DNA of 64,000 nt, taken from NCBI GenBank assembly GCA_021810905.1, contig JAJZQH010000012.1, forward strand, positions 10,001-74,000, in the 5' to 3' direction. The first letter of the stretch is position 1. The number at the start of each line of letters is the position of its first letter. The notes below the pieces were generated by a model, which saw nothing but the letters and a program-made list of their open reading frames with translations, ran no database searches and was not told the DNA's origin. The translations under genes were made by a program, and so were the position numbers. Below, piece after piece: positions 5,604 to 58,757 of this stretch. The stretch comes from a bacterium. GTDB lineage: Bacteria > UBA10199 > 2-02-FULL-44-16 > JAAZCA01.

Positions 5604-6860
5604 TCAGTTCTTGGCATCGCCGGTTCGCCTCGTAAGTTTTCGCGAGCGGAGATCCAATACGCGTTCGACATCGGATAACGAAACCCCGGAGCGAGCCAGT
5701 GCCGCCATTGCAAAATAGAGCAGATCGCCAGCCTCTTCGCTCACATGCGCGGGATCTTTTGCATCCGCAAGCTCTCCCGCTTCCTCACAGAGTTTCGCGC
5801 GCAGCAGGGCGGGATCCGACAACAGGCGGGCAGTATAGGATCCGGGTGGCGCATCTTTCTTGCGTGCGGCAAGGCGTCTCGCCAGCGCATTTAAGCCGCC
5901 ATCACTGCCCCAGCACGTCCTCGTGTCGTTGTGACAAAACCCGCTGCCGCGCTGATTGACCACAAACCGGAGGCAATCCCTGTCGCAATCCAGATCGATT
6001 CGAATAAGATCCTGCGTCTGACCCGAGCTCTCGCCCTTGCGCCACAGCCCGCGCCTGCGCGAGTGATATACACCGCTCTTCGTTCGCACCGCCTCGCGCA
6101 CGCTCTCCGCGTTCGACCACGCAAGTCCCAGCGCCACGCCATGTTCGTCGCACACGACCGTGGGCCAGAGCCCGTCCGGCCGATCCGAGGTGAGGGGCGC
6201 CGCGATAGCATCCGCCAGATCCATCTTTCCGGAATAGAGCGCCATGCCGATCTGCGCATCCGCACCCATTCGATCTATCTCGCCGATCTCCGCGGCCTCC
6301 GCAACGCCGCCCGCCACGGTTACGCGCGCGTGCCCCGCGGCATCGATCACCCGCCGCACCTCATCGAGGTCGATTCCCTGCATGCGGCCCTCGAGCTCTA
6401 CGAACGTAACGAGAAAACCGCCGACCAGATCGCGAAGTTCCGCGAGGCGTTCGAGCACTGTCTCACTCGTCTTCTTCGTCCAGCCCTCGACGACGATTTC
6501 GCCGTGCACCGCGTCCAACGCAGCGATGACGCGATCGCGCGGAAGACGTGAGAGAAGTTCCGGCTGCGCCGCCGTGCCGATGATGATCTTCCTCGCGCCT
6601 GCATCCAGCCAGCGAAGCGCCGTATCATAATCGCGTATGCCGCCTCCGACCCTACAGTCATATTTTGCCGTCAACCTCTCGATGAGCTCGCGGTTATTCC
6701 CTCTGCCCATCGCCGCATCCAGGTCGATGACGGCGATCTCGCCGGCAACGGAAAACTTCTCGGCAATTGGAAACGGATCTCCAGCATCTATTGCCATCTC
6801 GCGACCGCCTATCAGCTGAACCGCCCTGCCTCCCATGAGATCTATTGAAGGAATCATCAT
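5604..6860 (-). CDS. hisAIE: Trifunctional HisA-HisI-HisE fusion
   Basis: One 418-residue reading frame joins three enzymes of histidine synthesis. Residues 1 to about 228 are HisA, the ProFAR isomerase barrel: IPSIDLMGG with the catalytic Asp, GGGIRD, and AALDAVHG with the second Asp. Residues about 230-318 are HisI, phosphoribosyl-AMP cyclohydrolase: SGVYHSRRRGLWRKGESSG, then DLDCDRD, FCHND and RTCWG supplying three zinc cysteines. Residues about 325-418 are HisE, phosphoribosyl-ATP pyrophosphatase: PPGSYTARLL and EEAGDLLYF. HisI-HisE fusions are common; adding HisA is not. No frameshift is needed. It overlaps hisF by 4 bp (ATGA) and precedes hisD. Confidence 0.95.
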   Translation of the reverse strand: MMIPSIDLMGGRAVQLIGGREMAIDAGDPFPIAEKFSVAGEIAVIDLDAAMGRGNNRELIERLTAKYDCRVGGGIRDYDTALRWLDAGARKIIIGTAAQPELLSRLPRDRVIAALDAVHGEIVVEGWTKKTSETVLERLAELRDLVGGFLVTFVELEGRMQGIDLDEVRRVIDAAGHARVTVAGGVAEAAEIGEIDRMGADAQIGMALYSGKMDLADAIAAPLTSDRPDGLWPTVVCDEHGVALGLAWSNAESVREAVRTKSGVYHSRRRGLWRKGESSGQTQDLIRIDLDCDRDCLRFVVNQRGSGFCHNDTRTCWGSDGGLNALARRLAARKKDAPPGSYTARLLSDPALLRAKLCEEAGELADAKDPAHVSEEAGDLLYFAMAALARSGVSLSDVERVLDLRSRKLTRRTGDAKN

Positions 6861-13588: not shown

Positions 13589-13616
13589 AAAAGTGTGGGA
13601 AATAAAGGAGGAGATT

Positions 13617-14894
13617 ATGGGCCTTGAGACGACGTTGAATTTTTCACCGTGTTCAGTCTTCGCATCCGACGGGCTGTTCGAGTCTGCCGTGAATGCCGAG
13701 GCGGAAGCAGATGGATCGAACCGCTGCGATGGAGATCAGACTTTCGATGCAGAAGGAGACGCCCCGGCATCAAGCCCTTGCGCTGAGACAACTTCCTCAT
13801 ACTGTTCCGGCAGCGGTGATGCCGCTCTGGAAAAGATGTCGCTGCGCCCGTCCGGCAACGTGCAGCGTTTTGCGACGAATGCCGCTGTCGCGGGCGATGG
13901 CGAACTCTCCGCAGGGAAGACTGAAAACGCCGACGATTTCGGACTCGGAGAACTCGATATCGCCTTCGTGGAAGAGCAGATGCGGCCGGGAAATTCTTCG
14001 ATTGCTGGCTTCCTCGGCCGGGATGAATCGCTCCTCGATGTCCTCCGAACGGACGCTGCGACGCTCAGAGACTACGGCGTTACGCATGAGGAGGTCGCGG
14101 AGCTTCTGAGCCAGATCGTCTCCGGAATGACTGAGGATTATCAAGTCCAAGTCGGCGATGACGAATTCGATGTTCGAGTGACCGTATATAGGGGTTCTCA
14201 AGAATGCCCTTTCTTTAAGCATGGCGATGACGGCAAGCGCGTTCACCTGCAGCCAATCGACATGAGGCTCGATATAGGACATCGCGGTAGTAAGGATTAC
14301 ACGGTCACGAATGTGCGCACTGGACAATCCCTGAACTTCGGCGGGCTGCTCATCCATCTCATCCGCGTCCACAAGTTTTTTGAGGGGAAGGGGACCAGCT
14401 ATCGCCTCCCGCCCGAGGACGTGATCAGATTCTTCGGCATGGAGAGGGAAGCGAGGTCCGCAACGGTGATCGAGACTCCTTCCTATCGCTACGAGAATTA
14501 TGCCATGCGTATCTTCGGTGTGCTGTGGCAAATCAAATCTCTTTATTCTGGAAATATCGACATCGACTCGTTCACAGGGGAGGAGGGCCTGCGCGCATTT
14601 TCCGAGATCGTCGACCAGGTCGCGTTTGTCGCGCCCGCGATCAGGGATAGCTGGAAGCAGCGTGCAGCCGAAATCGTCGATAACCTCGGGACCAAAGACG
14701 AGTCCTCGATTCTCGATATCCTCCTCGGGACCAAAAACGTGTCCTCCAGGACGACTTGGGCAGCAAAGCGCGCGGAGCTGGATGAGTTAGCTTCCGAGAT
14801 CGAGGCGGAGGTGATCCGATCCACGGGATTCGTTCCCCCTCAATATCATTGCAAAGCTACAGCGGCCAAGCTTCCGCCAAATTTGGGAAGATGA
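13617..14894 (+). CDS. Unknown protein, tandem paralogue 1 (C-terminally shortened)
   Basis: I do not recognise this family. The 425-residue protein starts at ATG 13617 behind AAAGGAGGAGATT. It has no Sec signal. Residues 1-100 are rich in Ser, Ala, Asp and Cys and probably disordered; the rest looks globular and acidic. The first about 390 bases are almost identical to the next gene (14959), as is a block encoding LLIHLIRVHKFFEGKGTSYR (about 250-270). The C-terminus stops about 100 residues before that of its paralogue, and sequence related to the missing part persists downstream. It carries the shared promoter motif. Confidence 0.75.
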   Translation: MGLETTLNFSPCSVFASDGLFESAVNAEAEADGSNRCDGDQTFDAEGDAPASSPCAETTSSYCSGSGDAALEKMSLRPSGNVQRFATNAAVAGDGELSAGKTENADDFGLGELDIAFVEEQMRPGNSSIAGFLGRDESLLDVLRTDAATLRDYGVTHEEVAELLSQIVSGMTEDYQVQVGDDEFDVRVTVYRGSQECPFFKHGDDGKRVHLQPIDMRLDIGHRGSKDYTVTNVRTGQSLNFGGLLIHLIRVHKFFEGKGTSYRLPPEDVIRFFGMEREARSATVIETPSYRYENYAMRIFGVLWQIKSLYSGNIDIDSFTGEEGLRAFSEIVDQVAFVAPAIRDSWKQRAAEIVDNLGTKDESSILDILLGTKNVSSRTTWAAKRAELDELASEIEAEVIRSTGFVPPQYHCKATAAKLPPNLGR

Positions 14895-14958: not shown

Positions 14959-16545
14959 GTGGGCCTTGAGACGACGTTGAATTTTTCACCGTGTTCAGTC
15001 TTCGCATCCGACGGGCTGTTCGAGTCTGCCGTGAATGCCGAGGCGGAAGCGGATGGATCGAACCGCTGCGATGGAGATCGGACTTTCGATGCAGAAGGAG
15101 ACGCCCCGGCATCAAGCCCTTGCGCTGAGACAACTTCCTCATACTGTTCCGGCAGCGGTGATGCCGCTCTGGAAAAGATGTCGCTACGCCCGCCCGGCAA
15201 CGTGCAGCGTTTTGCGACGAATGCCGCTGTCGCGGGCGACGGAAAACTCTCCGCAGGGAAGACTGAAAACGCTGACGATTTCGGACTCGGAGAACTCGAT
15301 ATCGCCTTCGTGGAAGAACAGATGCGACCTTTCATCGGACTTTCGAGAGCTGGCTTCCTCGGTCGGGACGAATCGCTCCTCGACATCCTGCGCGCGGACG
15401 CCGAGACACTCAGACGGTACGGCATCACGCATGAGGAGATTGCTGAGCTCCTGAGTCAGGTCGCCGCCTATTCCCGTAATACTGACCATTACCAAGTCAA
15501 AGTCGGTGATGAACGATTCGATGTTGATTTGAACATGTACTTGGGCTCTCAAGAATGTCCCTTCTTTAAGCATAGCGATGATGGCAAATACTTTCACCCT
15601 CATCCCATGGACTGGGACATCGACATAAGACACCGTGCCGGTTGCGATTACAAGGTCAGAAATGTGCGCACCGGACAATCTCTGGAGTTCGGCGGTCTGC
15701 TCATCCATCTCATCCGCGTCCACAAGTTTTTTGAGGGGAAGGGGACCAGCTATCGCCTCCCGCCGGAGGACGTGATCAGATTCTTCGGCATGGAGAGGGG
15801 GGTGAGGTCCGCCACATTGATCGAGACGCCTTCCTATCTCTACGATTATTATGGGGTCGGCGTCTTCCTTGTGCTCGGGAATTTTCTACGTCTTTATGAT
15901 GAAAACAGGGACTCTGGCAGCTTCACGGGGGAGGAGGGCCTCCGAGCCTTCTCCGCAGCCATCGATCGGATCGCGTTTGTCGCGCCCGAAATCAGGGAAG
16001 ATTGGAAACAGCGTGCAGCCGAAATCGTCGATAACCTCGGACCGAAAGATGAATCCTTAAAGGCGAGTTGGGCAGCAAAGCGCGCGGAGCTGGATGCGTT
16101 CTCTTCCGCGATCGAAGCGAAGGTGATCCGATCCGCGGGATTCGTTCCCCTTCGATATTGGTTCGATGGTACGGGTGCCTTGTTTTCGGAAGACGTCGAA
16201 AAGTTCAGGACGGCAAAGTTGCTGAGGGCGTTTGCCGATAAGGTTGGAGAGTTGATGAAGGAAAAAAGCCGGTTCGGGAGCAGCCCCGATTACAGAGAAT
16301 GGTATTCGTTGCTCAATTGGGCTGACAAACAGACCTCCTCCGGAAACCTCTATGACTATCCGTTCCCCGCGGAAATCTATCAGCGCATCCGTGGGACGAT
16401 CGAGCATATGAATGTGGTGATGATAGGAAGCGATTCGTACGAGGATGCCCGCTGGCAGCTGGATGCCCTTCTTGAACAACTGCGAAACCAGGCGGAGGCA
16501 GAACTGTCCGCCGCGCGCCAAGGACTTTCCATGAAAATGGAATAG
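14959..16545 (+). CDS. Unknown protein, tandem paralogue 2 (full length)
   Basis: The family is unknown to me. Start is GTG 14959 after AAAGGAGAAGATT, aligning exactly with the ATG of the first copy. The 528-residue product shares the disordered Ser/Asp/Cys-rich N-terminal 100 residues and the globular core with the preceding gene, then continues for about 100 residues (EDVEKFRTAKLLRAFADKVG onward) into a helical C-terminal region. No signal peptide or membrane segment is visible. Identity between copies is patchy: near-perfect blocks alternate with diverged ones, as expected from gene conversion. No promoter motif is seen between the copies, so the two are probably co-transcribed. Confidence 0.78.
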   Translation: MGLETTLNFSPCSVFASDGLFESAVNAEAEADGSNRCDGDRTFDAEGDAPASSPCAETTSSYCSGSGDAALEKMSLRPPGNVQRFATNAAVAGDGKLSAGKTENADDFGLGELDIAFVEEQMRPFIGLSRAGFLGRDESLLDILRADAETLRRYGITHEEIAELLSQVAAYSRNTDHYQVKVGDERFDVDLNMYLGSQECPFFKHSDDGKYFHPHPMDWDIDIRHRAGCDYKVRNVRTGQSLEFGGLLIHLIRVHKFFEGKGTSYRLPPEDVIRFFGMERGVRSATLIETPSYLYDYYGVGVFLVLGNFLRLYDENRDSGSFTGEEGLRAFSAAIDRIAFVAPEIREDWKQRAAEIVDNLGPKDESLKASWAAKRAELDAFSSAIEAKVIRSAGFVPLRYWFDGTGALFSEDVEKFRTAKLLRAFADKVGELMKEKSRFGSSPDYREWYSLLNWADKQTSSGNLYDYPFPAEIYQRIRGTIEHMNVVMIGSDSYEDARWQLDALLEQLRNQAEAELSAARQGLSMKME

Positions 16546-29301: not shown

Positions 29302-30507
29302 TCAGCCGCCGCTGCCTTCCGACCAGTGGATCCACCGCTGGATCGGATTTCCGTCGAGATCATTATCGATGACGACGACGCTGCCGTTGTTGCGTGGCCT
29401 GCTCCTGACTTCCCTGTTCGTCCCGCGTTCTCCCGCGCCGCGGAATCGCTGATAGGCCTCAAAGATACCGTCGAGGCTGGGCCTGCGAGGCGGCATCAGT
29501 TCGCTGACCGCTCTGCTGATTTCACGAAAATCATATCTGATACCGGCAGCTTTGAAAATGGAGAGCAGATTGTTGAAACAGCTCATCTTCACGCGGTCAT
29601 CGGCATCTGATTTGACCAGCAGTTTTTCCAGGCCGTACTCGGTGCCGCCCTGTTCGTCGAGCGACCTCCGGATGAAGAGATAGCCCTTGAATATTTCGCG
29701 AACGTCGTTCAACCGGCGCAGCGCGCGGAGCGTGGCCGCATGAGAATAGCGATTACAGACGAGCATCCGCAAGGGATCGTCTTCGTCGCGATCGAGGACG
29801 ATCAATTTGACGTCAAAATAATCCCCCCTGACTCCCCGCTCCCACTTTGATTCAGGCGCATTCCTGATGATATCGCCGATCGTCCAGAGATCCTCGGCAA
29901 GCCTCGCACCTCCAATGACAGGGACCCGGAGGCCGGAGACGTCCTCGATCTCCCCGATACCCTTTTCACCCTCCATCTCAAGGTCCGCCCTGACGACGAG
30001 TTCGTCAGCCCACCTCTCGGCTACGTCGCGTTCGGTGTGCCTGACCGCGAACGAGGCATCTGTTGCAAAGGGCTCCATCATCCTCCATCGGATCGTGTTT
30101 TTGGAGGCGATGCTGGCGACGCGGAGGTCATTGGTCGCCGGGTCATAGACAGCGTAAGGCGTCCGCCTGAAGACGGAAACAGAAGACGAATTCAGGCCGA
30201 CGGGTTCGGCAGGCGAAGGTTCCTGGTGCAGTGCCGCGGAAAACGCCGCCCTCCGGAAGAACACACTTTTGGAGGCTGGAGAATAAACACGGAGCAGAGC
30301 AGCAGAGAAAGGAACAGACGCAGAATCGTCCAGATACGTCGCGGGTACGGCAGGCGTTTTATCTCCGGTTCCCTCGATCGGTGACGATGACGCATCGTCC
30401 GAGATATCGCTGCTTGGCATGAAGGCGTCCGACGTTGCCAGGATTGGCTGCGAGCCCGATGTTGTGTCGCCAAAGCAAGCGATGCTCATGCACGGAAGCG
30501 CGACCAT
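29302..30507 (-). CDS. Unknown protein with disordered N-terminus
   Basis: I do not recognise this 401-residue protein. ATG 30507 follows AGAGGAG by six bases. Residues 1-60 are rich in Ser, Thr, Asp and Pro with a short Cys-containing start (MVALPCMSIACFG) but no proper signal peptide. The central part (about 110-350) looks globular, with FDVKLIVLDRDEDDPLRMLV and a helical stretch HAATLRALRRLNDVREIFKG. The end has VVVIDNDLDGNPIQRW. It lies 90 nt after the sigma-like gene on the same strand and may share its transcript. Confidence 0.7.
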   Translation of the reverse strand: MVALPCMSIACFGDTTSGSQPILATSDAFMPSSDISDDASSSPIEGTGDKTPAVPATYLDDSASVPFSAALLRVYSPASKSVFFRRAAFSAALHQEPSPAEPVGLNSSSVSVFRRTPYAVYDPATNDLRVASIASKNTIRWRMMEPFATDASFAVRHTERDVAERWADELVVRADLEMEGEKGIGEIEDVSGLRVPVIGGARLAEDLWTIGDIIRNAPESKWERGVRGDYFDVKLIVLDRDEDDPLRMLVCNRYSHAATLRALRRLNDVREIFKGYLFIRRSLDEQGGTEYGLEKLLVKSDADDRVKMSCFNNLLSIFKAAGIRYDFREISRAVSELMPPRRPSLDGIFEAYQRFRGAGERGTNREVRSRPRNNGSVVVIDNDLDGNPIQRWIHWSEGSGG

Positions 30508-30597: not shown

Positions 30598-32949
30598 TCA
30601 CCGCCTGCGAGCCGGTCGGGCGAGCGTTTCCCGAATCGATAGTATTTCTGACGAGTTCAGCCTGTCGGAGCGTTCCCAGCCGAGCGCTTCCACGGTGCCG
30701 GGGAAGTTCCATAACAATATGGCGACAAAACGATAGGCGTCCCAAAACGCCTCAAGCGGATTCCTTGCGCCCAGGGTCGCGTAGTTCTCGCATACAAAAC
30801 GAATCCTGCCTTCACGGCCCGCGTATTCGCCGCTGCGAAGCGCATCACAGAGTTCGCCGGCATCGCGCGCTCGTTCCACGGGTCGTGCGGTTTCAGCCGG
30901 CGCGATTGCAGCGTCATGCTTCGACGTCGACGCAGCCGACGGTGCTGGCACGCTATCTTCAGAAGCGGCCTGCCTCTTCTTTGGAATCTTGATCGGCACG
31001 AGTTTCATGTCGCTGCGTATCAGCGCCATCAGTTCGTCGCAGGCCCTGTTCCTGAAGGCTTCGGCACGCACATGAGAGATGCACTGAAATCTCCCGACCT
31101 CCTCGATCGAAAGCTTTTTCTCCCAGTACAACGTATCGAAACCGCGCAGGAGCCTGATCGTGCGGCGTTGATACTGCTCCAGATGCGCGATGAGCTGCTC
31201 CGGCGGCCTCTCCCTGGAGAGCCCTTCAATCCTGAGCCCGAGCCAGAGCAGATCTTCATAAATGATTTCAGCTCTCATCTGCAGCCGCGCGGCGATCTCT
31301 CGGTGAGACATCCGCTGAACAATGGCGAGATCGTAAAGCACGCGCTCCTCCGGCTTCAGGTTCCCGATCGCCTGCAGGCGTCGTGCTTCGGCGTCGCGGG
31401 TCAACTGCGATGCAGTCGCAGAGTCCGGAACCTCAAGCGGGATGAGCTTCGCGTCGCTTAGTATCAGCGAACGCAGTTCGATGTAGGCCTCATTCCTGCC
31501 AAAAACGCCTCCCCTCTGAAAAACATGCAGTATCCTCCGGATCTCGGTGAAAGACATCTTTTCTCCCCAATGCTGCGGATCGAGGCCGTGCAAAAGCATG
31601 ACCGCGCGCCTCCGATACGGGTTCAGATGCGCGAGCAGTTGCTCCGGCGGTCTCCCTCTGGAGAGCCCTTCCACCCTGAGCCTGAGCCAGCGCAGCTCCG
31701 CAAAAACCCGTGCCGGGTTCATCAGCAGGCGAGCGGCGATTTCCTTTTGAGGGATGCCCTGAACATACGCGAGGTCGTAGAGAGCGCGCTCTTCCGTTGT
31801 CAGCTTTTCAATGACGGCGAGGCGCTGCTTCTCGTTCAGATGAAAGGGAAAAAAGGGCTTTGGCTTCTGGGGTCTCCCTGCGAGCACCTGCAGACGGGCC
31901 TTTGCCTTTCCCTCGATGAACGAAATCAACTGGCGCGATACCCCCATGATATCCGCAATTTCCCGCAGAACCATCCCGGAGCCGCGCAATTCGATCACGC
32001 GGCGCTGCGTCGGCGGCAATGCGAAAAGAAATGGCCGAAGTTCGGCATCAAAGGAAGCCTCATCCTCGGGCGATGCAACAGAACTCCGCTGCATCTCGAT
32101 GAGGGGTTGGCGACCTCTCTCATTTTTCGGCGTTTCGTCCAGGGAAGAGACTCGAACCCTGTTTGCCTCCAGCGCCCCTTCCACCTGCTGCTCCGTCAAT
32201 TTCGATATCGCGGCCAGCTCTTCGACAGAAGCCGCCTGCCCAGTTCTGGCAAAGAAATCGGCGAGCAACTCCTCCAGCATGCGCCCCCTCTTCTGTTGAA
32301 GCCTGGGGACGTTCACCGCCTTATTTTCTCTCTTGAGAAAGTGATTGATGAAATACCGAATCCACCACCCGGAATAGGTGCTGAAGGTAAAACCGCGATC
32401 CGGGTCAAAGAGGTCCAGGGCTCGAAGCAGGCCGATGTTTCCCTCCTGGACGAGCGTATCGAACGAATGCCCGCTCCTCGCATACTCCCTCGCTATTTTG
32501 CACACCCACCCCTGGTGCCGCGCTACGAGCTGGTGGCGTGCAAGCAGCCCTAGCGGGGAACTGCGCTTTGCGAGGAGATAGCGGCCGCGCTCTCGAAAAG
32601 TCTCGATGCTCGGGTGGGAGATGAAAAAACGCGAATCGGAATGACCCTTGACCCGCAGGGGTAGATTCTGGACCGATGTGTCGAGGGAGATGAATCCGTC
32701 TTTGGAACCTGGCGCAGCCTTCGCAGGCGAGCCCGTTTCCCCCGCGAAGGCGTAGGCATCTTCCGAGTCGCCTGCAGGGACGACGACGCCTTCGTTGCCG
32801 CGCACGAAGAACTCGGAAGAGGTCGAGCCCCCCTGCGAAAGATCGCTCTCCGTGTCCAGAGGCTGCTGCGTAAGCTCCAAGCCGGAGTCGAGGGTCAGAT
32901 TCGCAGTCGCCTGCCACGTCTCATTCAGGGATGTCGGATATGCGCACAT
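30598..32949 (-). CDS. Sigma-70-family factor with two extra C-terminal repeats
   Basis: In numbering from ATG 32949 (783 residues), 1 to about 105 are disordered. About 139-215 are sigma region 2: DTLVQEGNIGLLRALDLFDP and GFTFSTYSGWWIRYFINHFL, the -10 recognition helix. About 220-280 are region 3 and about 301-357 are region 4 with its helix-turn-helix (LREIADIMGVSRQLISFIEG). Two related repeats of about 130 residues follow, about 374-507 and 530-656. Each begins with a region-4-like HTH (QKEIAARLLMNPARVFAEL; HREIAARLQMRAEIIYEDL) and continues EGLSR-RPPEQL-AHL. A final unique segment ends the protein. The ATG lies eight bases after a shared-motif promoter; a GTG at 32967 is the alternative start. 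Confidence 0.85.
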   Translation of the reverse strand: MCAYPTSLNETWQATANLTLDSGLELTQQPLDTESDLSQGGSTSSEFFVRGNEGVVVPAGDSEDAYAFAGETGSPAKAAPGSKDGFISLDTSVQNLPLRVKGHSDSRFFISHPSIETFRERGRYLLAKRSSPLGLLARHQLVARHQGWVCKIAREYARSGHSFDTLVQEGNIGLLRALDLFDPDRGFTFSTYSGWWIRYFINHFLKRENKAVNVPRLQQKRGRMLEELLADFFARTGQAASVEELAAISKLTEQQVEGALEANRVRVSSLDETPKNERGRQPLIEMQRSSVASPEDEASFDAELRPFLFALPPTQRRVIELRGSGMVLREIADIMGVSRQLISFIEGKAKARLQVLAGRPQKPKPFFPFHLNEKQRLAVIEKLTTEERALYDLAYVQGIPQKEIAARLLMNPARVFAELRWLRLRVEGLSRGRPPEQLLAHLNPYRRRAVMLLHGLDPQHWGEKMSFTEIRRILHVFQRGGVFGRNEAYIELRSLILSDAKLIPLEVPDSATASQLTRDAEARRLQAIGNLKPEERVLYDLAIVQRMSHREIAARLQMRAEIIYEDLLWLGLRIEGLSRERPPEQLIAHLEQYQRRTIRLLRGFDTLYWEKKLSIEEVGRFQCISHVRAEAFRNRACDELMALIRSDMKLVPIKIPKKRQAASEDSVPAPSAASTSKHDAAIAPAETARPVERARDAGELCDALRSGEYAGREGRIRFVCENYATLGARNPLEAFWDAYRFVAILLWNFPGTVEALGWERSDRLNSSEILSIRETLARPARRR

Positions 32950-32957
32950 GCGAGCCC

Positions 32958-32988
32958 TTTTCAGCACTCTCCCTCGGAAGTTGCGCGG
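32958..32988 (-). promoter_or_regulatory. Shared-motif promoter of the sigma-like gene
   Basis: On the minus strand CCGCGCAAC (32980-32988), 14 bases, GCTGAAAA (32958-32965). The -10-like box differs from GCCGATAA at two positions. It ends eight bases before ATG 32949, so the message would have almost no leader. Confidence 0.45.
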
Positions 32989-34983: not shown

Positions 34984-35014
34984 TCACGCAACAATTTCTC
35001 AGGAACCTCGATAA
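34984..35014 (+). promoter_or_regulatory. Shared-motif promoter of the 35031 gene
   Basis: TCACGCAAC (34984-34992), 14 bases, CTCGATAA (35007-35014), preceded by TTTT. The same spacing as for 13617, the sigma-like gene, 42264 and 47398. It ends 16 nt before the ATG. Confidence 0.55.
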
Positions 35015-35030
35015 GGATGTACCTCTATCT

Positions 35031-36233
35031 ATGGACAGCTTTCTCACAATCCCTCTGCCGCAGCCAAAGCTCATGGTCGCGGACTATGTTGAGTCTGAAG
35101 GCCAGCCAGTCCCCGAGCACTGCGACTCATGTGACGACGCATTGGCGAGCGGCGACCCGTTCATCGTTCGCAGCGAACACCCGCAGGAATATGCAGGTGC
35201 ATCGGGCCTTCTCACCAGTTTCAAGGTGACCGCCGAACGCCTGGAGGCAGCCCCGTCATATGATGACGCCACAGGCCGCGGATCGGCACTCGACCGGGCA
35301 CTCTTGCGAATCCTCCAAAAGAAGCTCGCCGGCGGGAGCGATAAGGAATTTGAGTCGAATCTGACCGAATTGAGCGGCGATCGCATAGATCAATATTGCA
35401 GGCTGATGAATGTGCGCAGGGATGATTTTCTCAAAGATCTCTCATATTCATACTGGAAACTGCTTGGAGGTTACAACCAGAGCATTATCGCGGACAACGC
35501 CGTGCCGGGCCGCTATCACGTCTTCACAACCGCGGCGAAGGCGCCGTCCGTCAATTATAACTATTGCATGATCGAGGGGGCCAGGGTCATCCTCAGCAAG
35601 GGCAGCAATTTAGGAGGCCTGCTCGACGAGGACGCGATCATCAAGGGCGCCGCGACGTTCGTCGATTATTATGAATCCGTGAGGTGGCTCAAGAAGTTCG
35701 ATCCTTCGCACTGCCCTATCATAGAATGCCAGTGGGTGGACGGCGTCCATTATTTCCTGCAGTATCACCGAACTCGAGACGCTGAACCGGCCAGGTTTAA
35801 GCTCACCGAAGGACGCAAAGGGGACGAGGTCGAGGCATTGTTCGTGAGGGGCGCCACGCCTCCTGAGGGGATCGTCGTCAACGCGGCCATCAGTACCGAT
35901 TCTCAATGGAGAACGAAACTTTTTGAATACGAGGAGGCCTCGTATAATTGGGGTGAGGAAGTATATGATGAACTCATGACTCGGAGGCGCTGCGTCCAAC
36001 TCATGAACAAGTCGTGTCTCGAGGTGCTCGCGTACAACGCGTGTGTGGGGCATTTGCCTCGATCTTTCATGTTCAAACCTCGAATTTCCGTTGTCACAAA
36101 TTTTTCCGATGAATCCTTCCGGGGTCTCTCGCGTCAAGCGGCCGAGGAGACGCGGCGCACGGGAGTGCTTTTCTGTGTCCCGCTCCTGGTTCGCTCCGAC
36201 GGCAGGCGGGCGCTCGCGAGGATACTCCGATAA
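35031..36233 (+). CDS. Unknown protein resembling the PEP-synthase/PPDK N-terminal domain
   Basis: The 400-residue protein has no signal peptide. FIVRSEHPQEYAGASGLLTSF (about residues 43-63) resembles the RS-xxxED-xSxAG stretch of pyruvate phosphate dikinase/PEP synthase ATP-binding domains, and CPIIECQWVDGVHYFLQYHR (about 237-256) resembles the end of that domain (EWxxDGxLYxLQxR). The match is by eye and weak. After the TAA at 36231 the same frame continues with a segment containing GPVLSHWTALKYY that looks like a phosphohistidine domain, so the gene may be truncated. AAGGAT precedes the start loosely. Confidence 0.6.
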   Translation: MDSFLTIPLPQPKLMVADYVESEGQPVPEHCDSCDDALASGDPFIVRSEHPQEYAGASGLLTSFKVTAERLEAAPSYDDATGRGSALDRALLRILQKKLAGGSDKEFESNLTELSGDRIDQYCRLMNVRRDDFLKDLSYSYWKLLGGYNQSIIADNAVPGRYHVFTTAAKAPSVNYNYCMIEGARVILSKGSNLGGLLDEDAIIKGAATFVDYYESVRWLKKFDPSHCPIIECQWVDGVHYFLQYHRTRDAEPARFKLTEGRKGDEVEALFVRGATPPEGIVVNAAISTDSQWRTKLFEYEEASYNWGEEVYDELMTRRRCVQLMNKSCLEVLAYNACVGHLPRSFMFKPRISVVTNFSDESFRGLSRQAAEETRRTGVLFCVPLLVRSDGRRALARILR

Positions 36234-36355: not shown

Positions 36356-36769
36356 CTATCTGACTTTCTGCAACGCGCTCTCCGCCCAATCGACGAAACG
36401 CTCGGCATCCTTGGCAATTTTTTCAGCCTCACTCTTTGTGACAAGCGATGGCCCATATTCGATATGACTCTTGATGGATATCACACGCGCAAGCCTTGAG
36501 ACATCCGGTTGCAATTCCCGAGGCAGAGACTGTTTAAGGAGCTCGACGGCGTCCAGATGATTGGAGCTGGTGCATCTCACGCCGGTAAACGCCACGGTCA
36601 GCGCATCGTTGGCGCTTATGACGGCATGGACCGCATCGATGACAAGGGCATTCCAATTCTCCAGCACGAGATTGTTGCGCATGCTCTGCCGCAATTCCAT
36701 CGAGCGTTTCAGATAATTCGCTGCATCCCTTTTATCGACGACGGCTGTTTTAATCTTTTTTGCAGTCAT
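36356..36769 (-). CDS. HEPN-domain protein (MNT-HEPN pair)
   Basis: The 137-residue helical protein fits HEPN RNase-like toxins. WNALVIDAVHAVISANDAL is the typical HEPN helix, and RCTSSNH (about residues 65-71) fits the catalytic R-x4-6-H motif. It overlaps the preceding nucleotidyltransferase gene by 20 bp, as in known HEPN/MNT modules, where MNT silences HEPN, in some cases by adding AMP. Its C-terminal end converges on the 35031 gene. Confidence 0.8.
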   Translation of the reverse strand: MTAKKIKTAVVDKRDAANYLKRSMELRQSMRNNLVLENWNALVIDAVHAVISANDALTVAFTGVRCTSSNHLDAVELLKQSLPRELQPDVSRLARVISIKSHIEYGPSLVTKSEAEKIAKDAERFVDWAESALQKVR

Positions 36770-37385
36770 AGCTCAGCACCTCGCTTGGCGTTAAACCGTA
36801 GATCGCCTTGCCCTCGACAAAGACGTTCCTCATGAATCCTTTTTTTTCCTTAACTGATCTTTTCAACTCGGAAATTGCAACGACCTTGGGAGATGCGTGA
36901 ATCCCGTATCGCGTGAGGATATCTGAATTCAAGGAAAGCAGTCGATCGAGATGGTCCGGTTTTATCCGGTCATCTCTGTACACAAAAAGCAGATCAAGAT
37001 CGCTTTCAAAATGCTCTTCCCCCCTCGCAAAACTGCCGTACATGATGATCGAGAGGGGCTTCGGTTGAAGCCGGCGAGCGTAAAACGCACCCAAATCCCT
37101 CGGCCATCCATCAATTATTTCCCACATGGGAATCAGCGCATGCGCCACGAACCAGTGGCTCCTGTTGAGGGTATAGAGCCTGGCCCTGCCGGCGTTTCTG
37201 GACTCGATCAAACCAAGCTTTTCCATATTATTCAACGAATCGAGCACGGCCTGAGGTGAGTAACCTGCAGAAGCCGCGGCTTCACGGCCGGTCATCTCTT
37301 TCCCTGAAAAGCAGAGATGCTTGATGACGCTGAGGGCGATGGCGCTCCCGAGCAATCGGTTGTATGCTTTCTGGTATTCAGACAT
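36750..37385 (-). CDS. HTH-nucleotidyltransferase (MNT antitoxin-like)
   Basis: The 211-residue protein has an N-terminal winged helix (about 15-75: GREAAASAGYSPQAVLDSL) and a minimal nucleotidyltransferase with MYGSFARGEEHFESDLDLLFV (about 114-134), holding GSxxRG and DxD. It probably neutralises the HEPN partner and may bind its own promoter through the HTH, since two identical palindromes cover that promoter. ATG 37385 has no ribosome-binding site and coincides with the expected transcription start. Confidence 0.85.
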   Translation of the reverse strand: MSEYQKAYNRLLGSAIALSVIKHLCFSGKEMTGREAAASAGYSPQAVLDSLNNMEKLGLIESRNAGRARLYTLNRSHWFVAHALIPMWEIIDGWPRDLGAFYARRLQPKPLSIIMYGSFARGEEHFESDLDLLFVYRDDRIKPDHLDRLLSLNSDILTRYGIHASPKVVAISELKRSVKEKKGFMRNVFVEGKAIYGLTPSEVLSYDCKKD

Positions 37386-41646: not shown

Positions 41647-42264
41647 CTAGAATTGGTAGCCAAAACCGATAGAACCAAGCATAAGTCGATCGCTACCGGA
41701 GGCAATGTCAGTTTTCGCACCTAATATCGCCAAGAAACCTGAGTTCGCAATATTGCTGGCAACACCGCCCTCTAAAGCGGGCATCACAGATGTCCCAATC
41801 GAAGCATATCTCAAGCCCGGTGAAAGCTGCAGGATCAATGAACCAATACTCGTAGGAATCTGGTAATCGATCTCCACTCCACCAAAAGCACGGACGCGCA
41901 TCTCGGAATAGTTCTTCTCAATCTGAATATACCGAGGAAGGGGCCTCCCCTGAAGATCTGTGCATGCATCATATTCACACGGCCATCCCACACCCGACGT
42001 GGTTTGCCATTTATAGGATGCCTGAATCAGCGTGAAGGTGGTGCGAAACCCCAGACTCAATTTCCCCAAGATCGGCATTGTGCTCGCAACCTGAAAACTG
42101 CCTCCGTAGGCATTGATGCCCTGTTTGTCGTCGCCGGCATTGCCCGTATCAAAGGTAAGGGTCGGCATGACGCCGCCGACCTTTTCGTCTGCAGGCTCCT
42201 GTTTTACGGATGACACCCCTGTGTCAGGCACCCCCAAGGCACCCACTTCTCCTGAGCTCAACAT
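41647..42264 (-). CDS. Beta-barrel-like protein without signal peptide
   Basis: The 205-residue protein ends in alternating polar/apolar strands (LILQLSPGLRYASIG; RLMLGSIGFGYQF) with a terminal Phe, like outer-membrane barrel proteins. It lacks any Sec signal: the start MLSSGEVGALGVPDTGVSS is firmly placed by GTAGGAGA seven bases upstream. Either export is by another route, the signal was lost, or it is not a membrane protein. It carries the shared promoter motif and its own terminator. Confidence 0.65.
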   Translation of the reverse strand: MLSSGEVGALGVPDTGVSSVKQEPADEKVGGVMPTLTFDTGNAGDDKQGINAYGGSFQVASTMPILGKLSLGFRTTFTLIQASYKWQTTSGVGWPCEYDACTDLQGRPLPRYIQIEKNYSEMRVRAFGGVEIDYQIPTSIGSLILQLSPGLRYASIGTSVMPALEGGVASNIANSGFLAILGAKTDIASGSDRLMLGSIGFGYQF

Positions 42265-42306: not shown

Positions 42307-42337
42307 TTATCGTCAAAAAAAAAAAAAACGTTGCGCG
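42307..42337 (-). promoter_or_regulatory. Shared-motif promoter with 13-T spacer
   Basis: On the minus strand CCGCGCAAC (42329-42337), G plus thirteen T (14 bases), GACGATAA (42307-42314). The homopolymer fills the spacer, so slippage would change box spacing and expression. Confidence 0.55.
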
Positions 42338-45940: not shown

Positions 45941-47398
45941 TCATCGAGCTCCGCCCAGGATTTCAAGCCGTTCGTTCTGTGGCAGTCGCGCCAACAGGGC
46001 CGATTCGGTTGCAACGAATTCCCGACGTTCTTCCTCGCGCATGTGTCGCACGATTAGGGCCATCAGATCGACCGCACCATTATGAACCCTTGAAGAAATC
46101 ACGCCGCCGTCTTCTTTATTGACCGCGACAACGTGGGTATGCGGCTGCACGGCTATCATCAGGACCGGCCTCGCCGCCGCAACCAGGTTGATTCCAAGAT
46201 GAATATAGTTCTGATCGTGCGGCCAATGTTCCATGAGATCGGCAAGCAGCCCAAGATGATCTTCAAGCAATTGATCGCGTTCGACAACGGCTTCTGTATC
46301 CCCGGCGCTTTCGCCGCGGATCTTCTCTATCGTTCCGACTTCTTCGTCCACTCGCTCTTTAAAGGCGCGCTCAAAACGCTCAGGACCTCCCAGACGGCCG
46401 CAATGCGGCGTGTTAGCCGCCCATTTGAGGACCTCCGGGACCATGGCCGCCGCGCTCGCATCCAGGTCACAGATACCTTTAGACCAAATTCTCTCCTGGA
46501 ATCGTTTATGGAGTTCAGGCAAGTATCTCCTGATATTTGAGAGCAGCATCGGGCTCTTCCTCTTATCCAGCCAGCTGTCCTGCTGTTCAGGCGTCATCAA
46601 ATTCAGGATGCGCACCAACAGGTGGACGCCCTCCCTGGGTGGAATCAACGTGAGCCACGTCGCGAAGTTCCATTTCATCCCATCGCTGAGTTGAGACAAA
46701 AAAAGGTGCATACAGGTACTGAAGGAACCCGCGTTTGCATGCGTGTAACCATCCATCAACTCTTTGACCACGGCATCATGATCCGTATTCGGGGCTTCGG
46801 CTATCTTTCTCATGGCATCCCAGACTTCCGAGCGATGCGTTCGAAACTTGCCGAGCCACCCCCGAACCACATTCACCTGCGCAGCGGAATCGAGCTGCGG
46901 CCATTGCACAAGCTCGCGCGCGATCTGTTCCTTCCGCGCCTGGTAAGCGGCCTTCGCGCGCTGATCGGCCCGATGATTTCGCAACCTGAGTCCCGCGATC
47001 CCGGCCGCTAGCAGCGCCAGGGGGACGCCGACCCCAAGGGCGATCCAGTTGAGACTCGAAAGTTCGCCCTCTCCCGTCTGCTCGTTGCGCTCATAGCAAC
47101 CCTGCGACTCAAACGCCAACGCGCCGGCCCCCAGGAGCGCCGATTCGGCCTTTGCGCTCGACCAGCGCACCACATCGCCCCGGCTCGAAGGCACGGGCCT
47201 GTCTCCGAATCTCCGCTGCGCCGCACGAATCGGCTCGGATGCGTCTTCAGCGGTTATGCCAGCTGGCTCGCATGCGACCGGCGCGGAATCCAGGGCCTGC
47301 TCCTCAACGCCCAGATCCAGCACGTCATCAGACGGCTGAACGAGATCGATGGCTGGAGCACACGACGATACAAAATCTGCAATACCGGAAACGGCCAT
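45941..47398 (-). CDS. Unknown single-pass membrane protein
   Basis: I do not recognise this 485-residue protein. ATG 47398 follows AAAGGAGGGG. Residues 1-110 are acidic and Ser/Ala-rich without a signal peptide; a membrane helix follows (LNWIALGVGVPLALLAAGIAGL, about 114-135), then a basic stop-transfer stretch (RLRNHRADQRAKAAYQARK) and a large helical cytoplasmic-type domain (about 160-485). By charge the N-terminus would face out. It carries the shared promoter motif. Confidence 0.72.
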   Translation of the reverse strand: MAVSGIADFVSSCAPAIDLVQPSDDVLDLGVEEQALDSAPVACEPAGITAEDASEPIRAAQRRFGDRPVPSSRGDVVRWSSAKAESALLGAGALAFESQGCYERNEQTGEGELSSLNWIALGVGVPLALLAAGIAGLRLRNHRADQRAKAAYQARKEQIARELVQWPQLDSAAQVNVVRGWLGKFRTHRSEVWDAMRKIAEAPNTDHDAVVKELMDGYTHANAGSFSTCMHLFLSQLSDGMKWNFATWLTLIPPREGVHLLVRILNLMTPEQQDSWLDKRKSPMLLSNIRRYLPELHKRFQERIWSKGICDLDASAAAMVPEVLKWAANTPHCGRLGGPERFERAFKERVDEEVGTIEKIRGESAGDTEAVVERDQLLEDHLGLLADLMEHWPHDQNYIHLGINLVAAARPVLMIAVQPHTHVVAVNKEDGGVISSRVHNGAVDLMALIVRHMREEERREFVATESALLARLPQNERLEILGGAR

Positions 47399-47442: not shown

Positions 47443-47473
47443 TTATCGCCTGCATTACCACTTTGTTGCGTGG
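47443..47473 (-). promoter_or_regulatory. Shared-motif promoter of the 47398 gene
   Basis: On the minus strand CCACGCAAC (47465-47473), 14 bases, GGCGATAA (47443-47450). It is preceded by A-rich DNA (several AAAAAA runs, 47474-47500) that could serve as an UP element. Confidence 0.6.
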
Positions 47474-58218: not shown

Positions 58219-58251
58219 CCACGCAACAAAAAAAAAAAAAAACGACGATAT
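58219..58251 (+). promoter_or_regulatory. Shared-motif promoter with 15-A spacer
   Basis: CCACGCAAC (58219-58227), fifteen A plus C (16 bases), GACGATAT (58244-58251). The spacer is two bases longer than in the other copies, and the extra bases are in the homopolymer. Confidence 0.5.
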
Positions 58252-58301: not shown

Positions 58302-58757
58302 ATGAATATTCGAGATATCGTGAATGCATCCATTGATGCACAGCTCTTCGGGGTCAGGGTCGCTATATCCATCCTGACCTCGCCCCTCGCATGCTCGCCG
58401 GCAAAGAGCGTGCAGCCTGAGACGCCGGAATCAGGATGGGTAACTGCAGAGGGGATCACGCCCGAGATGCTCGAGCAGATGAGCACGGCGACTCCGGATG
58501 CGGGCGTACAGGAGGATACTTCGTCATCCAGCTATTTACCGCCGCCGAACAAACCAACAGCTGACTGTTGCACAAAGCCGTGTGAGAAACATATTTCATT
58601 GTTGTTACCTCGAAGTACCCCGGGCAACACACTGCCAGATTTTGTTCAGTGTGTGACCGATTGCAGTAATGCATCCGACCCATCTAAGGCCGCGATCTGC
58701 ATTGAGGAAAAAAACAAGGCAGGAAAAACCGATATCGCCGAGTGTTACAGCAAATAA
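58302..58757 (+). CDS. Unknown Cys-rich small protein
   Basis: The 151-residue product follows AACAAGGAGTTAAGAA. A moderately hydrophobic start (LFGVRVAISILTSPLACS) could be a poor lipoprotein signal. The rest is Pro/Ser/Thr-rich, with a C-terminal half holding eight or so cysteines (DCCTKPCEKH; FVQCVTDCSN) likely to form disulphides, so an exported protein is plausible. I recognise no family. It carries the shared promoter motif. Confidence 0.65.
   Translation: MNIRDIVNASIDAQLFGVRVAISILTSPLACSPAKSVQPETPESGWVTAEGITPEMLEQMSTATPDAGVQEDTSSSSYLPPPNKPTADCCTKPCEKHISLLLPRSTPGNTLPDFVQCVTDCSNASDPSKAAICIEEKNKAGKTDIAECYSK

Follow-up and report, generated by a model that had tools for sequence, protein, structure and literature searches.

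Sigma factors are thought to have one region 4, which reads one -35 element. In SigA, RpoS and the cyanobacterial RpoD/SigA-type group 2 factors, regions 2, 3 and 4 can be aligned with residues 126-366 of the sigma-70 family protein described here, which is encoded in a 64,000-nucleotide stretch of bacterial DNA (the window, from here on). However, whereas the SigA/RpoS-type factors stop at region 4, the window protein adds about 300 residues, with four more predicted region-4-like modules, and a tail. Some ECF sigma factors likewise continue well beyond region 4 at the C-terminal end, but their extensions are SnoaL, TPR, WD40 or Cys-rich domains instead of region-4 repeats (PMC8999054). The sigma-70 protein MzaA, from the MZA defence system, is also oversized, and its C-terminal sigma part matches residues 137-369 of the window protein, but the extra part of MzaA is N-terminal and the array described here is C-terminal.

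Three assignments to known families were considered and rejected. As an ECF sigma factor with an extension, the window protein would be expected to be devoid of region 3, which is present according to a weak Pfam match (residues 235-296) and a full-length alignment with SigA. Identity with MzaA fails at 110.9 bits against a cut-off of 800, with no other MZA gene among the neighbours. Regarding the FliA/WhiG family, the score is 90.5 bits against a cut-off of 189.6, and region 2.4, WWIRYFINHFLKRENKAVNVP, differs from the FliA type.

The open reading frame spans positions 30598-32967 of the reverse strand, with the ATG at 32949 as its best start, resulting in 783 residues (Table 1). The protein belongs to the sigma-70 family by virtue of both a region 2 with its motifs and a region 4 helix-turn-helix: the core-binding motif LVQEGNIGLL and the melting motif FSTYSGWWIR (FSTYxxWWIR) are intact, and residues 126-366 align end to end with the solved structures of SigA and RpoS. 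The Pfam family Sigma70_r4_2 is found in three stretches of the chain, the best of them at residues 378-416 (2.1e-14). The recognition helix of region 4 proper reads VSRQLISFIEGKA, against VTRERIRQIEAKA in RpoD, and both this region 4.2 helix and region 2.4 are unlike those of RpoD, RpoH and FliA from the same genome. The first-pass annotation had proposed complete sigma regions 2, 3 and 4 followed by two repeats, an architecture that is borne out by Pfam (weakly for region 3) and by the alignment of the repeats, whose limits had been placed within about 25 bases of the present ones.

Table 1. Features of the sigma factor gene and copies of the shared promoter motif, in window positions.
Feature	Position	Strand	Remarks
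Full coding sequence of the sigma-70 family protein (783 aa) with its C-terminal region-4-like array	30598..32949	-	
N-terminal segment, residues 1-125	32575..32949	-	S/T/P/D/E-rich, K/R-poor; without Pfam match
Sigma70_r2, residues 141-209	32323..32529	-	Pfam 2.6e-17
Sigma70_r3, residues 235-296	32062..32247	-	Pfam 0.0047, weak
Sigma70_r4 (PF04545), region 4 proper, residues 309-353	31891..32025	-	Pfam 1.1e-10
Repeat A first half, Sigma70_r4_2-like HTH, residues 374-430	31660..31830	-	Pfam 2.5e-7, above curated cut-off
Repeat A second half, predicted canonical region-4-like module, residues 434-505	31435..31650	-	Profile comparisons
Repeat B first half, Sigma70_r4_2-like HTH, residues 522-578	31216..31386	-	Pfam 8.8e-5, just below curated cut-off
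Repeat B second half, predicted canonical region-4-like module, residues 582-653	30991..31206	-	Profile comparisons
C-terminal tail, residues 664-783	30601..30960	-	Unlike region 4; no known family matched
Weak motif copy CGCAACTTCCGAGGGAGAGTGCTGAAAA (CGCAACTT-N16-TGAAAA)	32958..32985	-	PWM score 16.5
Shared motif	34987..35014	+	16 nt before 400-aa ORF 35031-36233
Shared motif	42307..42335	-	Before ORF 41647-42264
Shared motif	47443..47470	-	Before ORF 45941-47398
Shared motif	58222..58251	+	Before ORF 58302-58757

Repeat A comprises residues 374-515 (DNA 31830-31405) and repeat B residues 522-663 (DNA 31386-30961), both on the reverse strand. Their BLOSUM62 alignment scores 320, with a maximum of 56 among shuffles, and their identity is about 43-52% (49% over 136 columns). 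The signatures EIAARLxM and EGLSRxRPPEQLxAHL, already pointed out in the first-pass annotation, are indeed identical between the two. While the first halves resemble Sigma70_r4_2, the second halves are not detected by Pfam. Nevertheless, when 34 sigma factors were combined into a region-4 profile, hhalign gave these second halves a score of 34.5 against it; the highest control values were 20.4 (150 column shuffles) and 21.6 (200 random windows). Independent support comes from a profile of the repeats, which matches region 4 of another sigma factor of the same genome via positions 59-121 (E=3.5e-5). According to these profile comparisons, the chain carries five region-4-like modules: region 4 proper, plus an r4_2-like and an r4-like module, twice. 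At the level of sequence, the extra helix-turn-helix modules of the earlier reading are present, but they number four instead of two, two per repeat, since the second halves had been missed.

The conservation of the repeats is uneven. In the first halves, the recognition helices of A and B are identical at just 1 of 8 positions, versus 31 of 52 in the scaffold (p=0.02), and that of repeat B is acidic/hydrophobic. At codon positions 1, 2 and 3 the repeats are alike in 71%, 76% and 57% of cases, respectively, with the frame open throughout; positions 1 and 2 being more alike than position 3, purifying selection on the repeats is indicated. Both patterns fit a scaffold under selection whose contact residues are diverging or relaxed. 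A putative role of the extra modules in DNA contact is plausible. AlphaFold2 models of repeat A, with B as a second row, and of residues 120-668 are of low confidence (mean pLDDT 47 and 41), with helices where expected and a pLDDT of 58-74 for the helices of the first half of repeat A. A Foldseek search with this low-confidence repeat model gave no significant match, sigma -35 domains (3hug) being among the non-significant matches of highest probability.

Profile searches found the repeats in 1 of 385 genomes across the domain, which is their own genome, and in no other of the 46 genomes of the class. They were likewise not detected in viral contigs (two scans) or in phage and plasmid records (tblastn), and no orthologs of the repeats emerged when 84,980 species genomes were scanned for peptide patterns, a method limited to close relatives. 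Elsewhere, these searches matched just the sigma core. In the literature searched, no sigma factor with a tandem region 4 was found.

Even though the repeats are confined to a single genome, other oversized sigma factors are encoded in this class. Four of them (L168, L169, L170 and L171), which are about 930-1265 residues long and come from one family of the class, have a flavin amine-oxidase-like domain C-terminal to region 4. In a fifth one (L172:312-3254), cut by the contig end, at least four Fis-type helix-turn-helix repeats (HTH_8) precede sigma region 2. They combine sigma regions with large extra parts, as the window protein does, but these parts are HTH_8 arrays or amine-oxidase domains and not region-4 repeats. 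The genome of the window also encodes a sigma-like protein of 877 residues whose N-terminal part contains repeats of about 100 residues each (L114:2072-4705, reverse strand, in contig C12), directly downstream of a gene bearing a copy of the motif described below (at 6355). Since oversized sigma factors recur in the class, the window protein can be regarded as one case of a broader habit of building mosaic sigma factors.

The window is also populated by copies of a promoter motif of the form CGCAACTTT-N16..18-GCCGATAA, with two spacing groups, 16 and 18. The pattern CGCAACN{14,19}CGATAW has 95 exact sites in the 2.98 Mb genome versus 2 in a reversed control, and 87 of the 93 distinct sites precede an ORF of at least 60 residues, at a median distance of 36 nt from the start. 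This shared promoter motif is real and genome-wide, and every one of the 46 class genomes has it. With the 16-nt spacing, it can be written as GCAACTTT-N11-GCCGATAA, the sigma-28 consensus of E. coli being TAAAGTTT-n11-GCCGATAA (PMC2859248). It therefore equals FliA/sigma-28 promoters in the -10 element and in spacing, but differs from them in the -35 element, CGCAACTTT versus TAAAGTTT (PMC2859248). Most proteins encoded downstream of the motif are without a Pfam match, and their N-termini are high in S, T, P, A, D and E and low in K and R, which separates them from other ORFs with an AUC of 0.83; this composition resembles that of type III secretion substrates, a likeness that is no more than suggestive. 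A weak copy (13561) accompanies ORF 13593-14894, which forms with ORF 14959-16545 a tandem of paralogues that are 75% identical, the one tested having no Pfam match.

Given its presence in all 46 genomes, the motif should have a class-wide reader. A FliA-family sigma factor (C15:207489-208352 in this genome) is present in 43 of the 46, mostly at 55-77% identity; its best family is FliA_WhiG (7.2e-40), with 137.1 bits against a cut-off of 189.6. The gene adjoins those of SctN, SctQ, SctR and SctT, in a locus that qualifies as non-flagellar type III secretion by its SctR (238.6 against a cut-off of 208.6) and its SctQ- and SctT-like genes, while its ATPase passes the SctN and FliI models alike. 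Within the locus, the FliA-family gene is preceded by motif copies, in this genome as well as in others, and this sigma factor is likely to be the reader of the motif. Copies with the 18-nt spacer were observed upstream of genes in the type III locus (L110/L111, G000:C15:190001-225000). The three genomes without the FliA-family factor (G006, G024 and G041) are also those without SctR. Genome G006, which is 99% complete, has 28 motif sites and neither a FliA-like sigma factor nor SctR was detected in it, which points to a gap in the assembly or to an exception.

The window sigma factor seems to be placed under this promoter system instead of at its head. The first-pass annotation had stated that the gene itself has the shared promoter, and a copy is found there, although a weak one: its -35 element is perfect, whereas its -10 element is degenerate, with two mismatches. 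In shuffled DNA, scores such as that of this copy are expected 0.8 times per 270 kb on both strands, which corresponds to about 1e-4 for the gap. With 8 nt between its -10 element and the ATG, the copy would require a leaderless transcript or a start further on. The first 70 residues of the protein have a regulon-like composition, within the top 3% of controls, and the neighbours 29302-30507 and 35031-36233 also resemble regulon members. Taken at the level of sequence, the window sigma factor is probably a target of the regulon of the FliA-like sigma factor, and not its master. The product of ORF 29302-30507 (reverse strand), directly downstream, has no family match, and its N-terminal composition is among the most strongly regulon-like ones; the gene probably shares an operon with that of the sigma factor. 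Two adjacent small genes at 36356-37385, possibly a toxin-antitoxin-like pair, include one for a 211-residue product matching the candidate defence families PDC-S09/PDC-M05A (PADLOC).

Our preferred reading, to which we give a probability of about 0.45, is that of a working alternative sigma-70 factor whose four-module array arose by tandem duplication, which would occupy the second tier of the type III-linked regulon and use the array for upstream contacts. A two-module unit, r4_2-like plus r4-like, would have been duplicated in tandem to give the C-terminal array of four extra modules. The class-wide FliA-family sigma factor would switch the gene on within the type III secretion-linked regulon, making its product a second-tier sigma factor, whose own region 4 would have lost the usual -35-contact residues. 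The array would then contact upstream DNA and/or the RNA polymerase or a regulator, selecting the promoters of this sigma factor. Against this reading count the low-confidence structures, the first half of repeat B with its score below the cut-off and its acidic/hydrophobic recognition helix, the lack of an ortholog, the poor -10 element of its own promoter copy, and the motif sites of G006 without a FliA-like sigma factor. In a somewhat unlikely alternative, the array would be a regulatory domain, in which region-4 look-alikes keep the sigma factor off or tune it, in the manner of C-terminal extensions of several ECF groups, by binding to region 2/4 of the protein itself, to an anti-sigma factor or to the RNA polymerase flap. 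Preservation of the scaffold and of the linker EGLSRxRPPEQLxAHL, but not of the first-half recognition helices, is in line with this proposal, as is the fact that published C-terminal extensions of ECF factors mostly regulate, by conformational change or protein contact (PMC8999054); however, known regulatory extensions are not region-4-like, and no partner gene was recognised next door. Unlikely, too, would be an arrangement in which five sigma4-like modules with diverged helices read promoters or several operator sites, as a long or modular upstream code, in a protein expressed within, and possibly exported by, the type III regulon.

Export on its own, with the window protein as a type III secretion substrate acting on RNA polymerase in a different cell or in an organelle, appears quite improbable. 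It would agree with the likely membership in the type III-linked regulon, the adjoining ORFan genes with a similar N-terminus, and the top-3% composition of its first 70 residues; but this composition classifies weakly (AUC 0.83), sigma factors commonly have an acidic N-terminus, and the protein is at most a candidate substrate. We also give little credence to the repeats being decaying duplicates of region 4 without a function of their own: although they occur in a single genome, have divergent recognition helices and, in repeat B, fall below the Pfam threshold, they retain about 50% identity over 136 residues in a frame open throughout, with the codon-position signature of purifying selection. 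The first-pass annotation had suggested that the window sigma factor controls the shared-motif regulon and its own expression, a view in which it would read the motif via its extra modules. Its location among motif-driven genes and the weak copy upstream speak in favour, yet this proposal is very improbable and is rejected. The motif is found in 46 of 46 class genomes and the repeat sigma factor in 1 of 385, a distribution that excludes the latter as the ancestral reader; moreover, GCCGATAA is a FliA-type -10 element, the FliA-family sigma factor is retained, in 43 of 46 genomes, together with the type III locus, and region 2.4 of the window protein is not FliA-like.

The layout of the window protein follows the known sigma-70 plan, to which it adds the array, with a function that we infer from sequence. 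If it does carry five modules, this sigma factor would be a test case for modular promoter choice. Beyond this single protein, the sigma-28-type motif CGCAACTTT-N16..18-GCCGATAA picks out large groups of genes across an entire uncultured class, most of them unknown and some of them belonging to the type III locus. It offers a direct route to listing the likely secretion regulon, a side result that may matter more than the array itself.
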